From assembly GCA_023406965.1 (NCBI GenBank), contig JAEXTI010000066.1, positions 1-6,556 on the forward strand: a stretch of 6,556 nucleotides of DNA. The letters run 5' to 3'. Made by a program: the position numbers and the translations under genes. Of this stretch, positions 1-6,556 are shown one piece after another; position 1 is the stretch's first letter; the number at the start of each line of letters is the position of its first letter. The notes beneath the pieces were generated by a model. The model saw nothing but the letters and a program-made list of their open reading frames with translations, was not told where the DNA came from and did no database searches. Origin of the DNA: Chloroflexota bacterium. Lineage in GTDB: Bacteria; Chloroflexota; Anaerolineae; Anaerolineales; Anaerolineaceae.

Positions 1-3253
<3,253 letters not shown>

Positions 3254-3259
3254 AAAGGA

Positions 3260-3266
3260 CACCTTT
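3260..3266 (-). promoter_or_regulatory. Shine-Dalgarno of secA
   Basis: AAAGGTG on the minus strand sits six bases before the ATG at 3253-3251 and supports that start for secA. Confidence 0.75.
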
Positions 3267-3276
3267 CTGGGGGAAG

Positions 3277-3285
3277 ATTATAGCA
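3277..3285 (-). promoter_or_regulatory. Extended -10 promoter of secA
   Basis: On the minus strand the sequence reads TGCTATAAT: a consensus TATAAT box (3277-3282) preceded by the TGn extension. A start site about seven bases downstream would give a 5' UTR of roughly 17 nt that still contains the Shine-Dalgarno. No convincing -35 hexamer is seen 16-18 bp upstream (AATCCT at 17 bp), which is tolerated by extended -10 promoters. It lies in the gap after the lipoprotein stop codon, so secA probably has its own transcript. Confidence 0.7.
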
Positions 3286-3343
3286 TAATGGAAAAGAGCA
3301 GGATTGACGGATTTTGAGATGTGCTGCCTCCACCTCAATTTGA

Positions 3344-3838
3344 CTATGGTTTCAGTTGCGTCAACATGATCATGGTGTAATTTTCGTCTGTGCTGAAAAT
3401 CAACATGATATTGAAAGCCTCGTCGCCCCGCTCATAATCCAGGATTGTTGCCGGGCCTCCATACATACTTGTTTCGCTTGTTTGCCGATTCGATAAAGCC
3501 CAACCATCTTGCTCCATTTTCTCCTGGTAAAACTGTTCCGCCTCATCCACGGTGACATTCACCGAATAAATATAGCCGAAACCAGCGGGCATCCCTTCGT
3601 TTGCGCCAGGAATCACCGGAACACCTTGCCAGTCAGACACCAGCGTACCCAGTTCTGGACTTTTTTCGTCAGTTGGTTCTGGCGTTAGCGTGATTTTCTG
3701 CTGAAGCGTGGGCGTAGGTGTAGATGGTAATGTGGCAGTCGGACGTGGGGTTTCTGAGGGAGACAGAACTTGTGAAACCGGTGAGCAAGCAGAAATGATG
3801 AAAGCAAGGGTCAGCAGGAAGGAAATTCTAAGCCGCAT
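3344..3838 (-). CDS. Small secreted lipoprotein with Thr/Pro-rich linker
   Basis: The product has 164 aa. An N-terminal MRLR, a hydrophobic stretch and the lipobox ISAC with Cys18 form a signal-peptidase II signal, so the mature protein should be lipid-anchored outside the membrane. Residues of about 19-65 form a Ser/Thr/Pro-rich linker with TPTPT-like segments, common in Chloroflexota lipoproteins. The remainder is a compact domain of about 100 residues with a VDEAEQFYQEKMEQDGW segment, the kind of helix found in small domains where a short helix packs near a GW turn. I do not recognise a named family with certainty, and no catalytic motif is evident. The start at 3838 is chosen because AAGGAG lies nine bases upstream and the signal peptide begins there. 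An in-frame extension to 3931 has no SD and would spoil the signal peptide. The gene ends with TAG about 60 bp before the secA -10 box, in the same direction. Confidence 0.85.
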   Translation of the reverse strand: MRLRISFLLTLAFIISACSPVSQVLSPSETPRPTATLPSTPTPTLQQKITLTPEPTDEKSPELGTLVSDWQGVPVIPGANEGMPAGFGYIYSVNVTVDEAEQFYQEKMEQDGWALSNRQTSETSMYGGPATILDYERGDEAFNIMLIFSTDENYTMIMLTQLKP

Positions 3839-3847
3839 AATTTCAAG

Positions 3848-3853
3848 CTCCTT
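3848..3853 (-). promoter_or_regulatory. Shine-Dalgarno of the lipoprotein gene
   Basis: AAGGAG on the minus strand, nine bases before the ATG at 3838-3836. It decides between this start and the longer in-frame extension up to 3931. Confidence 0.75.
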
Positions 3854-3982
3854 AGAAACAGGCATGTGGAACGAATAGCAGAAAGAAAATTGATGGTTGC
3901 AAGGATCGTGTCTGCTACAACCTGATAGCACCGTATATCCAATGATAGTTTCGACAGATCTTCAAACCAGCCAGCACTAATC

Positions 3983-4321
3983 TTAAAACACAAACGCCGA
4001 AACCATAGCGAACCAGACCCAGGCGACAAGGCCGAACAGAATGCCGAGCACGCCAATCACGATCCCAGCGGCAGCAAATTTTTTGTTGATCAAGCCCCTG
4101 GATCGCGCATTGGTCCCGGCGATGATGGCGATCAAGCCGCAAGGAATGGCGAGGTACAGCCCGCCAAAGAAGGCGGCATTCTCGAAGGTGACGTCGTAGA
4201 CCCCGTCGCGAGCGGTGACTTCGGATACATACGCGAGGAGGGCCGCCAGGAAGATGAAGAGGATGGGGATGCTCGCGAGGATCAGGGTCAAGGAGGGCCA
4301 GGAGGGCCGGGGGGTGTTCAT
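3983..4321 (-). CDS. Small three-helix membrane protein, DUF4190-like
   Basis: The product has 112 aa and three predicted transmembrane helices: about residues 10-32, 49-69 and 82-110. Helices two and three are joined by a short polar loop, GTNARSRGLINKK. The layout of helix 2, a G-x-x-A-rich polar loop, then an AAAGIVIGVLGILFG helix resembles small DUF4190-type membrane proteins, whose function is unknown. The loop between helices one and two (residues 33-48) is acidic and would lie on the opposite side of the membrane from the basic second loop, which by the positive-inside rule is probably cytoplasmic. The start is the ATG at 4321, the only sensible start since the next Met is residue 106. 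An upstream in-frame extension reads through tRNA-like and palindromic sequence and is not credible. There is no good SD, but a TATAAT lies seven bases upstream. The gene stops with TAA 144 bp before the lipoprotein start. Confidence 0.8.
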   Translation of the reverse strand: MNTPRPSWPSLTLILASIPILFIFLAALLAYVSEVTARDGVYDVTFENAAFFGGLYLAIPCGLIAIIAGTNARSRGLINKKFAAAGIVIGVLGILFGLVAWVWFAMVSAFVF

Positions 4322-4328
4322 GGCTTCA

Positions 4329-4334
4329 ATTATA
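4329..4334 (-). promoter_or_regulatory. -10 box of the membrane protein gene, possibly leaderless
   Basis: A perfect TATAAT on the minus strand ends only seven bases before the ATG at 4321-4319. With the usual -10 to +1 distance the transcript would start at or one base before the ATG, giving a leaderless mRNA. This agrees with the absence of an SD at a useful distance (only GAAG two bases away). No clear -35 is seen. The upstream DNA is the palindrome at 4352-4380. Confidence 0.5.
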
Positions 4335-4351
4335 TCGGGAAGGGAACAAAG

Positions 4352-4380
4352 ACGTGACAGGTTTTGAAAACCTGCCACGT
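4352..4380. repeat. 29-nt near-perfect palindrome
   Basis: Arms 4352-4365 and 4367-4380 (ACGTGACAGGTTTT and its complement) flank a single central G, with one mismatch (A4357 against C4375). No T-run follows on either strand, so it does not look like an intrinsic terminator. It could be a dispersed palindromic repeat of the genome, or an operator overlapping the -35 area of the leftward membrane protein gene. Confidence 0.75.
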
Positions 4381-4387
4381 TTGGGGG

Positions 4388-4413
4388 TGTGGGGGACCGG
4401 ATGGATTTGAATC
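4388..4413 (-). repeat. Degenerate tRNA-3'-end-like copy A
   Basis: On the minus strand this reads GATTCAAATCCATCCGG followed by TCCCCCACA. It shares AATCCATCCGG and CCCACA with copy B, which lies 64 bp away and is a better tRNA end. Its T stem is not intact in place: the partner GGATGG of CCATCC is displaced by an inserted C5/G5 hairpin (4414-4418 with 4422-4426), so GGATGG 4399-4404 pairs with CCATCC 4427-4432 at a distance. It is best read as a decayed relative of copy B. Confidence 0.4.
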
Positions 4414-4455
4414 CCCCCATTGGGGGCCATCCACCAAAAGACTTGCTGAAATTTG

Positions 4456-4485
4456 TGGGCCCGGATGGATTCGAACCATCGACCA
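4456..4485 (-). pseudogene. tRNA 3'-end remnant (copy B), candidate att site
   Basis: On the minus strand a variable-loop-like TGGTC is followed by a canonical T arm: stem GATGG, seven-base loop TTCGAAT, stem CCATC. An acceptor strand CGGGCCC and discriminator A follow, then CAA where CCA would be encoded. The matching 5' acceptor strand (GGGCCCG) and a D arm are absent from the upstream 200 bases, and no proper anticodon arm can be folded. It is therefore a 3' fragment, not a working tRNA. The sequence is compatible with a tRNA whose acceptor is GGGCCCG, possibly tRNA-Ile, but the identity cannot be set. Such fragments typically arise when tyrosine recombinases insert elements into tRNA genes. 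Confidence 0.55.
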
Positions 4486-4517
4486 AGCGGTGGCTTATCG
4501 TATTCCAAAACGGCTTA

Positions 4518-4544
4518 ATTTTGACAATTTTACCCATTTTACCG
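4518..4544 (+). repeat. Three tandem 9-nt AT-rich direct repeats
   Basis: ATTTTGACA, ATTTTACCC and ATTTTACCG follow each other without gaps. A looser fourth match, ATTTTGCGA, lies at 4558-4566. They sit about 210 bp upstream of the ParM-like gene. Type II partition loci often carry short direct repeats upstream of parM that bind ParR, so this is a candidate centromere, though the array is short. The first repeat also contains TTGACA, which lacks a matching -10. Confidence 0.4.
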
Positions 4545-4562
4545 GCTATCCCGCAACATTTT

Positions 4563-4603
4563 GCGAACAAAAAGACGCCGCTTTTTGTTTCTTTTTTGTT
4601 TGC
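4563..4603 (+). other. AT-rich hairpin with two competing 3' arms
   Basis: AACAAAAAG (4566-4574) pairs perfectly with CTTTTTGTT (4581-4589) around a six-base GC-rich loop, and TCTTTTTTG follows. The same 5' arm, extended to GCGAACAAAAAGA, can instead pair with the second T-rich arm ending GTTTGC (4590-4603), with one bulge and a wobble. In plus orientation the first hairpin plus T-run resembles a weak terminator, but its stem is poor in GC and no plus-strand gene lies upstream. Confidence 0.35.
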
Positions 4604-4693
4604 ATAAAACACCTGCGTATCTTTGACGGCCATCGCCGCCGCGACCAGACGGCTGGCTTTTGTCTTGTCCCCCAACCTGTGAAGCATGGAAAT

Positions 4694-4705
4694 GAGCGTT
4701 CGCTC
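4694..4705. promoter_or_regulatory. Short dyad, possible operator
   Basis: GAGCG-TT-CGCTC is a perfect 5-bp inverted repeat about 50 bp before the ParM-like start codon. The position would suit an autoregulatory site for the downstream small adaptor protein. The dyad is short, so chance is a real alternative. Confidence 0.25.
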
Positions 4706-4742
4706 TTCCACGTACCACGATCTCTATCCATTTAATTCTTTC

Positions 4743-4750
4743 AAGGAGGT
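4743..4750 (+). promoter_or_regulatory. Strong Shine-Dalgarno of the ParM-like gene
   Basis: AAGGAGGT lies seven bases before the ATG at 4758 and decides that start over an in-frame ATG at 4686, which has no SD. Confidence 0.85.
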
Positions 4751-4757
4751 ATCTACG

Positions 4758-5717
4758 ATGACTGATGTAATTGCTCTCGACCCTGGTTTTGGCAATACCA
4801 AAGTTTGCCTGGATGGTCGCACCATCATTGTGCAATCTGCCGTTACTCGTCCCCGGTCAATGGGCCTGGCTGCGGTTGGGATGAAGTCTGCTCAGCGGGT
4901 AGACAAAGTGACCCTGGAGCAACAAACCTTTGCTATCGGCGCTGGCGCCTGGAATCACGGCAGCCTGCTGGGAGGAATGGATTATACCGGCCTGGGTTCT
5001 TTAGAACGGCGCGCGCTTTTCTTTGGCGCGCTCTCCCAACTACTTGAACCCGAAGCATCGATAACAGGCACATTGATGGTCGGGCTGCCCGTGCCCTTGC
5101 TCCAGGATCAAACCCAGGCCGAAGCTGTGTTTGCTCGCATGAAAACCTTTAAGGGTCAGCACAAGTTTCAGGTGAACCAACATGCTTACCAGATCCAGAT
5201 CGACCGCATAAAAATCTTGGCTCAACCTGTTGGCGCTTATGCGAACTGGCTGCTCGATGAGAATCTGCGAGTTCGGAAGAACGGAAATCAATCCGAAGTG
5301 GCCGTCCTTGACATCGGCATGAACACCCTGGATTTGTTTGTCCTGCAAGGAGGGCAGGTCACCCCTCGCTTCGTGGGGGGCGGAAAAGTTGGCGTGCGTC
5401 GCTTGCTCGATATGATCCGCTCGGACGGCTTTGAACTGCAAGAGCTGGACAATGCTTTGCGCCGTGGCGAACTGCGGGCATCGAAAGAAAAGCTTGAGGT
5501 CTGGATGGATGAAATCCTGGCTTCGGTCGAGCCTATCTGGCCCAATCTTCGCCGTTTCTCTGCCATCATCCCGACCGGCGGGGGAGCCCTGCTGTTGGGC
5601 GAATTGCTCCGGTTGGCGTTGATCTCAAAAGGCGCGGCGGTTCATTGGCCAGACGATCCGATTACTGCCAATGTTCTCGGCCTTTGGAAGTGGGGCAGTT
5701 ATGTCAGCGCTCATTGA
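4758..5717 (+). CDS. Actin-like ATPase, ParM/StbA-type plasmid segregation protein
   Basis: The product has 319 aa, matching the usual ParM size. It carries the three nucleotide-binding signatures of the actin/Hsp70 fold in order: phosphate-1 LDPGFGNTK (D8, G10, N13, K15), phosphate-2 VLDIGMNTLDL (D185, G187, T190), and the adenosine motif PTGGGALLLG (residues 272-281). The C-terminal DPITANVLGL is like the end of ParM/Alp proteins. Known relatives polymerise into dynamic filaments that push plasmid copies apart, with a ParR adaptor linking filament to DNA. There is no signal peptide or membrane segment, so it acts in the cytoplasm. The downstream adaptor-like gene overlaps it by 17 bp, which supports a partition operon. 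The start follows a perfect AAGGAGGT. Codon use looks more mixed than in the strongly GC-ending secA, in line with acquisition. A phage or integrated-element cytoskeletal role is the main alternative to plasmid partition. Confidence 0.88.
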   Translation: MTDVIALDPGFGNTKVCLDGRTIIVQSAVTRPRSMGLAAVGMKSAQRVDKVTLEQQTFAIGAGAWNHGSLLGGMDYTGLGSLERRALFFGALSQLLEPEASITGTLMVGLPVPLLQDQTQAEAVFARMKTFKGQHKFQVNQHAYQIQIDRIKILAQPVGAYANWLLDENLRVRKNGNQSEVAVLDIGMNTLDLFVLQGGQVTPRFVGGGKVGVRRLLDMIRSDGFELQELDNALRRGELRASKEKLEVWMDEILASVEPIWPNLRRFSAIIPTGGGALLLGELLRLALISKGAAVHWPDDPITANVLGLWKWGSYVSAH

Positions 5718-5934
5718 GCGAGAGGATGGAACCGTGGTGGTGACTGTTCGGCTGACATTGAAACCGGGCCGAGACGATATCCTGATCAGCTTGGTGCGCT
5801 CTGCCCCTACTCGGATGTTGGCCCCCTTGATCCGGGAAGCCATGCGCAGCGGGGTGAAACCACAATTTGAGCCTGTCGATCAGGTTGGTCAGGTCTATCA
5901 GCTCGAACTACCAGATATCAGTCTGGATCTATGA
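5701..5934 (+). CDS. Small ParR-like adaptor / ribbon-helix-helix candidate
   Basis: The product has 77 aa. After a short leader it shows an alternating strand TVVVTVRLTLKPG (about residues 11-23), a first helix DDILISLVRSAP and a second helix RMLAPLIREAMRSGV, then a charged tail. The order strand, helix, helix with an xLIREAMRxG ending resembles ribbon-helix-helix centromere-binding proteins such as ParR. This is pattern resemblance, not a family match I can confirm. The ATG at 5701 overlaps the last 17 bases of the actin-like gene, and only weak purine-rich sequence (GGAAG, GGGG) precedes it, so translation is probably coupled. In type II partition loci the gene after parM is the DNA-binding adaptor that also represses the operon, which fits this position. 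An earlier in-frame ATG at 5671 would lie deeper in the upstream gene and is less likely. Confidence 0.65.
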   Translation: MSALIEREDGTVVVTVRLTLKPGRDDILISLVRSAPTRMLAPLIREAMRSGVKPQFEPVDQVGQVYQLELPDISLDL

Positions 5935-5990
5935 ATGTTACAAACCCAACTAAACAGGGTCGAATGTTATCTGCAAACGGAGGTGATTAA
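5931..5990 (+). CDS. Possible 19-aa micropeptide bridging two operon genes
   Basis: The frame reads MNVTNPTKQGRMLSANGGD. Its ATG overlaps the TGA of the small upstream gene as ATGA, and its TAA overlaps the ATG of the next gene as TAATG. Both overlaps are classic for translational coupling and would carry ribosomes over the 55-bp gap without release. No SD of its own is obvious, so it would depend on re-initiation. The peptide has no recognisable domain. The alternative is that the gap is simply untranslated and the frame arises by chance, which is quite possible at 19 codons. Confidence 0.35.
   Translation: MNVTNPTKQGRMLSANGGD
5979..5987 (+). promoter_or_regulatory. Exceptionally long Shine-Dalgarno
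   Basis: GGAGGTGAT is a nine-base match to the complement of the usual 16S rRNA 3' end (ATCACCTCC). GGAGGT ends five bases before the ATG at 5990. It fixes that start and suggests strong translation of the coiled-coil protein. Confidence 0.8.
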
Positions 5991-6502
5991 TGCCCATTTT
6001 TTGGACGCCGCAACATGAAGAACGTGTTGCCCAAACTGCTTACCAGTCAGGATTTGATGCCGGAAAAAAGGAAGGAAGGCGTCAGCATGAATTGGCAACA
6101 ACGGAGATGCTCAAGTACTTTGTCTTCAAATTCGACGAAATCTTTTGCTCTAACATTCCGACTTCGTTCCGGCTCTCATCCAGGGTGTTCCAGGAAAATC
6201 AGGATACTGAAAGGATCATCCGCGCCTTGCTAAAAGAAGCACAGGGGCTGCAGCAGGCTTTTGAGCAGTACCGCTGCACCTACAACGAATCGAATACCAA
6301 AGCTCTAAACCAACAGATCGCTGCTCTTCGGCACGACTTACAAACCGCCGAGAGCGAGCTGGCTAAAGCTCAACAAAGCTTGGGGTTACTCCAACATGCA
6401 CAGGCTTATGCTCGCAGCCTGGAAGCAAAAGTGGAGAGTTTGCAAAACGTGACCGTTACCCTCCAGAATGAGCTGGATTGGGCAAAAAAGACGGGCAAAT
6501 AA
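5990..6502 (+). CDS. Uncharacterised protein with C-terminal coiled coil
   Basis: The product has 170 aa and is not recognised. The N-terminal part (1-60) is mixed, with a GFDAGKKEGRRQ segment and an aromatic stretch LKYFVFKFDEIF at about 41-52. From about residue 72 the chain is helical. Residues of about 100-166 have heptad-like spacing of Leu, Ile and Val (L106, L113, L117, L124, L131, L144, L151, L158, L162) and many Gln, Glu and Ala, the signature of a coiled coil. There is no signal peptide, membrane helix or catalytic motif. It is the third or fourth gene of the actin-like operon, with an excellent SD. By position it might be a filament-associated, membrane-tethering or DNA-bridging factor, but this is inference. 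A structural phage protein is another possibility. Confidence 0.75.
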   Translation: MPIFWTPQHEERVAQTAYQSGFDAGKKEGRRQHELATTEMLKYFVFKFDEIFCSNIPTSFRLSSRVFQENQDTERIIRALLKEAQGLQQAFEQYRCTYNESNTKALNQQIAALRHDLQTAESELAKAQQSLGLLQHAQAYARSLEAKVESLQNVTVTLQNELDWAKKTGK

Positions 6503-6540
6503 TCGGTTAGAGAACCCATAGTACTCGAATATTTTTCTTC

Positions 6541-6546
6541 AGGAGG
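6541..6546 (+). promoter_or_regulatory. Shine-Dalgarno of a gene starting at or past the right edge
   Basis: AGGAGG is followed by ATTTTTGACC and the end of the window. The start may be the TTG at 6551 (four bases after the SD, rather close) or a codon just beyond 6556. No terminator is seen between 6502 and here, so the operon probably continues. Confidence 0.6.
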
Positions 6547-6556
6547 ATTTTTGACC

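Follow-up and report, generated by a model that had tools for sequence, protein, structure and literature searches.

Actin-type (type II) partition on integrating elements and on chromosomes has already been published (PMC4489591, PMC12270681), and several described systems resemble the locus studied here, a stretch of 6,556 nucleotides (contig JAEXTI010000066.1, positions 1 to 6,556; the whole stretch is called the window) that carries a parM-like gene, a 77-aa adaptor-like gene and a coiled-coil gene. According to PMC4489591, the srpMRC locus of SXT/R391 integrative conjugative elements combines, as in the window, a ParM-type ATPase with a small downstream adaptor that has no recognisable domain; it lies on an integrating element and adjoins int, and it has been reported to bind DNA and to stabilise a plasmid as well as the element. 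It differs from the window in its hosts, in having reported DNA binding and stabilisation, which for the window are predictions, and in that no coiled-coil gene is described for it in the section consulted (PMC4489591), whereas one follows the window pair. The cParMR cassettes consist of a chromosomal ParM with a nearby ParR-like gene, distant ParRs being recognised by a predicted ribbon-helix-helix and by context; the hosts named are Desulfitobacterium, Natranaerobius, Bacillus, Moorella, Clostridium, Caldicellulosiruptor and Burkholderia, and the main text mentions none of "Chloroflex", "tRNA", "mobile" and "coiled" (PMC12270681). Plasmid ParMs (R1, pSK41, pCBH, Cbc-ParM) resemble the window ATPase in their actin-like ATPase motifs and are represented among its PDB matches, but the best such match reaches only 6.7e-8 and the ATPase belongs to a large family of its own. 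Finally, TubY (type III) and KfrA (IncU) are coiled-coil proteins of plasmid-like elements near partition genes; both bind DNA (PMC7762940, PMC7783346), whereas the window's coiled-coil protein contains no DNA-binding domain above a Pfam cut-off.

With a probability of about 80%, we read the locus as a type II partition module close to the end of a mobile, plasmid-like element that has inserted next to a tRNA gene of a Chloroflexota chromosome, with the coiled-coil gene as an accessory. The 77-aa adaptor would attach to a centromere carried by the element and link it to ParM filaments, which would drive sister copies apart during the excised, replicating phase of the element. What the analysis establishes is the identity of the genes, the conserved pairing of ParM and adaptor, the nearness of a tRNA end and a loose association with the coiled coil; the DNA binding, the filaments, the excision and the partition we infer. 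The coiled-coil protein would be a separate, optional accessory gene product of such elements; it comes from a fast-evolving family that also turns up in a replication-type block made up of an IstB/DnaC-like ATPase, a PD-(D/E)XK protein and the coiled coil. The genes concerned are, in order:

4743-4749, plus strand: ribosome-binding site AAGGAGG of parM, read off the sequence
4758-5717, plus strand: parM-like open reading frame (ORF) for a 319-aa ParM-type actin-like ATPase, with Pfam, PHROG and PDB matches and 540 homologues
5701-5934, plus strand: ParR-like adaptor ORF of 77 aa, overlapping parM by 17 nt, with a strand-helix-helix pattern
5979-5986, plus strand: ribosome-binding site GGAGGTGA of the coiled-coil gene, read off the sequence
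5990-6502, plus strand: ORF of a 170-aa coiled-coil accessory protein, with 3 close homologues and diverged relatives in the comparison loci L062 and L076

Judged by its sequence, the first gene encodes a real ParM-type actin-like ATPase, for which filament formation is predicted. Its product matched the Pfam families ALP_N (9.1e-15) and MreB-like_C (2.5e-6), both above the cut-offs, as well as phrog_691, "partition protein" (3.8e-34); the NCBIfam models ParM and PRTRC_D were matched only far below their cut-offs. A phmmer search of the PDB at E≤1 returned six sequences, five ParMs and Ta0583, with 3js6 and the pCBH ParM among the matches; the best were those to Cbc/CBg-ParM, two at about 7e-8, and the other four lay between 0.004 and 0.2. 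The protein contains the nucleotide-site motifs phosphate-1 (DPGFGNTK), phosphate-2 (DIGMNTLD) and adenosine (PTGGGA), and residues D8, G10, G12, D185, G187, T190 and G274-276 were invariant in an alignment of 32 sequences drawn from 120 listed of the 540 homologues found at E≤0.001. No Hsp70 family was listed for the ATPase in Pfam, PHROGs or NCBIfam, and none occurred among the six PDB sequences; the clustering with Hsp70-type proteins that had been named as an objection was thus not observed. As an aside, in locus L007 the main parM is interrupted by an internal stop, and a second fragment resembling parM lies about 6.4 kb off, which suggests decayed copies.

The pairing of ParM with the adaptor is conserved: a match to the adaptor profile adjoins parM in 29 of 31 loci (window included), and in 15 of 16 loci outside the training alignment. 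On this sequence evidence the 77-aa protein is a conserved partner of ParM, and the overlap of the two reading frames suggests that they are probably translationally coupled. An AlphaFold model of the adaptor places strands at residues 4-6 and 12-14 and helices at 26-34 and 40-50, so that the protein, as modelled, looks like a ribbon-helix-helix ParR; this fold received no support from Foldseek, VIA-align or Pfam. The best PDB profile matches were NikR (E 0.12) and 2q2k (E 0.32), neither significant, both of which we take to be ribbon-helix-helix proteins and the latter the ParR of pSK41. The original prediction of an actin-based segregation operon is supported at the sequence level by the identity of the ATPase and by the conserved adaptor. 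Its two components are likewise borne out, the ParM-type ATPase with three intact motifs by the ORF, the motif residues and the Pfam, PHROG and PDB matches, and the overlapping adaptor-like gene by the 17-nt overlap and the recurrent pairing.

The third gene lies on the same strand, 55 bases behind the adaptor ORF. On a simple heptad measure of our own the 170-aa protein scored 1.35, whereas 200 composition shuffles averaged 0.80 and never exceeded 1.275, and its AlphaFold model is nearly all helix with a pLDDT (model confidence) of 57.6, too weak for a structure search. Together with GGAGGTGA, the ORF and the heptad score agree with the predicted coiled-coil protein behind a very strong ribosome-binding site. 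In a set of about 5.8 billion proteins, searched by a method that detects only proteins with short exact words in common, we found 3 relatives that are 75-95% identical, and a four-sequence profile (E≤1) returned the same 3. The lengths of contigs hint that these close relatives lie apart from any ParM of the two nearest clusters, a hint to which we give no weight.

We then asked whether this protein accompanies ParM elsewhere, and found the association to be loose. Over the ORFs of the window and of loci L001-L048, phmmer detected only the window's own protein. Comparison by hhalign with 167 downstream ORFs gave one convincing relative, in L062, whose score of 33.6 was reached by none of 250 heptad shuffles and none of 167 reversed ORFs. 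Among downstream ORFs of 85-260 aa the family went undetected in 19 of the 20 ParM loci whose downstream sequence extends for 2 kb or more, L062 being the exception. There ParM and the adaptor are followed by an IstB-like ATPase, a 91-aa ORF and, last, the coiled coil, and the relative is colinear with the window protein. When the L062 sequence was added, the genome search uncovered a further relative in genome G494 (locus L076), where it follows genes for an IstB-like ATPase and a PDDEXK_3 protein on a 5.2 kb contig; no match to ParM was found in G494 at E≤1. Because coil artefacts reach 29.1, the homology of the L062 protein rests on a profile-profile test, in which the window group and the L062 and G494 relatives scored 46.4 (probability 92%, 158 columns) against a maximum of 21.5 in 300 heptad-preserving column shuffles.

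Other searches for the family added little. The profile extended by the L062 sequence matched 19 genomes, strongly and near full length only in G472, whose sequence belongs to the profile and which matches by construction, and in G494 (1.1e-13); the other 17 matches were weak (E 0.001-0.009), mostly coil matches. The window protein alone matched 1 of 396 genomes of the class, a weak coil match (E 4.5e-4), and no relative was confirmed in viral contigs, for which the L062 protein also served as query, or in plasmids. A match to the last 26 residues of a 94-aa ORF in L020 first beat its controls (26.2 against a maximum of 24.0); this locus (22.1) and L003 (21.6) were dropped after a six-sequence profile placed both below a reversed coiled-coil ORF (29.1). 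We regard the coiled-coil ORFs near parM in L003, L020 and L069 as positional look-alikes only, and homology of the L003 coiled coil to the window family is not demonstrable. As a separate observation, an IstB/AAA-type ATPase with a small coiled-coil protein recurs in plasmid-like elements (L062, L076, L003), and a PD-(D/E)XK protein (PDDEXK_3) beside such pairs was confirmed in L003 and L076 only.

The original prediction had cast the coiled-coil protein as a fixed new partner of the ATPase and had named its absence beside homologous ATPases as the result that would count against this. In 19 of the 20 loci no relative was detectable and the claim of a fixed partner finds no support, yet L062 does hold a diverged relative behind its ParM. 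Could the protein nevertheless be a dedicated third component of the segrosome, TubY- or KfrA-like, that binds the adaptor-centromere complex, the filament or the membrane and stabilises partition? Its position on the same strand after a 55-base gap, its perfect ribosome-binding site, the homologous gene behind the ParM-adaptor pair of L062 and the precedents of TubY and KfrA, described as segrosome-associated (PMC7762940, PMC7783346), argue for such a role; against these points stand the 19 loci in which the family was not detected, the relative in G494, where ParM was not matched, and the IstB-like ATPase gene and 91-aa ORF that separate adaptor and coiled coil in L062, and we consider this explanation unlikely. 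Quite unlikely, in our estimate, is its extension, in which the family would be an undescribed third part of Chloroflexota actin-type segrosomes that diverges fast because it tracks the centromeres or filaments of each element, with occurrences next to ParM-adaptor pairs in two or more distant lineages of elements (window and L062). Since only L062 among the 20 loci carries a relative and G494 has one without a ParM match, the family seems, on these comparisons, to accompany such elements more than the ATPase itself. Most likely the coiled-coil protein is a maintenance factor of the element; given the diverged relative in L062, a looser functional link to ParM may exist. The case counsels caution, in that a place behind a partition pair does not by itself make a gene a partner in partition.

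The partition module lies close to a tRNA end, on which we base the placement of the element border:

4390-4411, minus strand: second, degenerate tRNA-end-like 22-mer, an 86% identical direct repeat, 64 nt away
4448-4491, minus strand: tRNA 3' half whose 5' half is missing, probably an attachment-site remnant that marks the left border of the element

ARAGORN called no full tRNA in the window. The T-arm of the fragment is fully paired, and Rfam gave a weak T-arm match (13 bits, E 0.39). The fragment aligned (E 0.9) to annotated tRNA-Asn 3' halves in all 8 E. coli records listed of 40 matched; among 12 phage matches listed, three were to tRNA-Asn, one to tRNA-Lys and the rest unannotated, and the matching plasmid entries gave no tRNA name. 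An identity as tRNA-Ile was dropped, the 44-mer query having been found in 0 of 396 genomes and its first bases having been judged to lie outside the tRNA. The two 22-mers (4390-4411 and 4454-4475) are possibly successive attachment remnants; a further complete copy of the tRNA end would be expected beyond the window.

A pattern scan for T-arms across the ParM loci gave 12 in 354,978 bases, compared with 3, 0, 1, 1 and 0 in five shuffles, and 11 of the 12 sit upstream of parM. Among the seven close loci whose upstream sequence reaches 3 kb or more (window, L002, L003, L004, L005, L007 and L050), six have a T-arm upstream of the parM ORF, within 3.4 kb. The T-arms of the window, L002 and L004 are on the minus strand and lack a full tRNA, that of L004 lying 286 bp ahead of the parM ORF; in L003 the minus strand carries an intact tRNA-Glu, and L005, L010 and L050 have an intact tRNA-Asp on the plus strand ahead of parM. 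Could the window fragment be a chance or unrelated remnant, the operon having reached the secA side by another route? The weak Rfam match, the ambiguous tRNA type and the failure to see an intact copy leave some room for this, but the excess over shuffles, the recurrent position upstream of parM and the same arrangement in L004 make it improbable. A related observation comes from L050 (8751-8960), where an intact tRNA-Asp runs straight into the parM frame and about 50 N-terminal codons including phosphate-1 are gone; the missing piece was searched for in that genome and not found, which leaves two explanations, an attachment core within parM or decay of the gene.

The distribution and neighbours of related loci also point to a mobile element. 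ParM relatives at E≤1e-20 were patchy, occurring in 34 of the 396 genomes that represent the class and in 5 of the 400 that represent the phylum (overlapping sets, in which at most 5 candidates per genome were scored). In L002, parM is surrounded by a phage integrase (Phage_integrase 2.2e-36, behind parM), a CHC2 primase and an FtsK-like ATPase; L003 has a helix-turn-helix regulator, an AAA ATPase and a PDDEXK_3 gene nearby, and the helix-turn-helix proteins of L057 and of L052, the latter with a DnaA_N domain, are taken to be replication proteins. One relative lies on a virus contig and another belongs to Virus Rctr41k, where a gene named xerD follows some 2.6 kb downstream; no integrase was seen in the window. 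That the window pair is instead a ParM-ParR pair domesticated by the chromosome to serve the host, independent of a mobile element, would accord with the polymerising chromosomal ParMs of Desulfitobacterium and C. botulinum reported in PMC12270681 and with secA beginning about 1.5 kb from parM, but is very unlikely in view of the patchy distribution, the tRNA end, the integrase, the primase and the virus-contig relatives.

Beyond the module, the window contains:

2-3262, minus strand: secA, running off the left edge and taken as the chromosomal side of the border
3344-3931: ORF read as a lipoprotein, without a Pfam match
6541-6556, plus strand: ribosome-binding site (AGGAGG, 6541-6546) and TTG at 6551, probable start of a further gene that the window edge truncates

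The secA product matched four Pfam SecA families (SecA_DEAD 5.6e-121), and a small minus-strand ORF gave a sub-threshold match to DUF4190. SecA shares 61-64% identity with a protein from three metagenome-assembled genomes, those behind L003 (Chloroflexi), L004 (Candidatus Aquidulcis, Chloroflexota) and L007 (Anaerolineales), and five of the six close ParM loci (L002-L007) are labelled as Chloroflexota members, L006 as Pseudomonadota. Owing to both likenesses the host is probably a member of the Chloroflexota, in line with the Chloroflexota-like genome first proposed. Among the open-access papers listed, judged by title and beginning of abstract, no Chloroflexota or Anaerolineae case of actin-type partition was evident; PMC10462680, considered as such a case, concerns Cellvibrio, and ParM is absent from the first 300,000 characters of PMC7203096. 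The host group may be new for ParM-adaptor pairs, and the loci point to an apparently uncharacterised ParM-adaptor group in Chloroflexota on tRNA-associated mobile elements, which would extend the SXT/R391 idea that integrating elements use actin-type segregation while excised.

No repeats of the tandem kind usual for parC centromeres were found in the gaps between genes of the window. In L002, four 10-nt direct repeats (9915-9963) directly before parM form a candidate centromere, the commonest 7-mer not exceeding shuffles, and in L004 ATTGCAC occurs in 4 copies, a count that 2 of 200 shuffles also attain. The part of the window that separates the small minus-strand ORF from the tRNA remnant contains a near-perfect 14-nt inverted repeat with a 1-nt loop (4352-4380).
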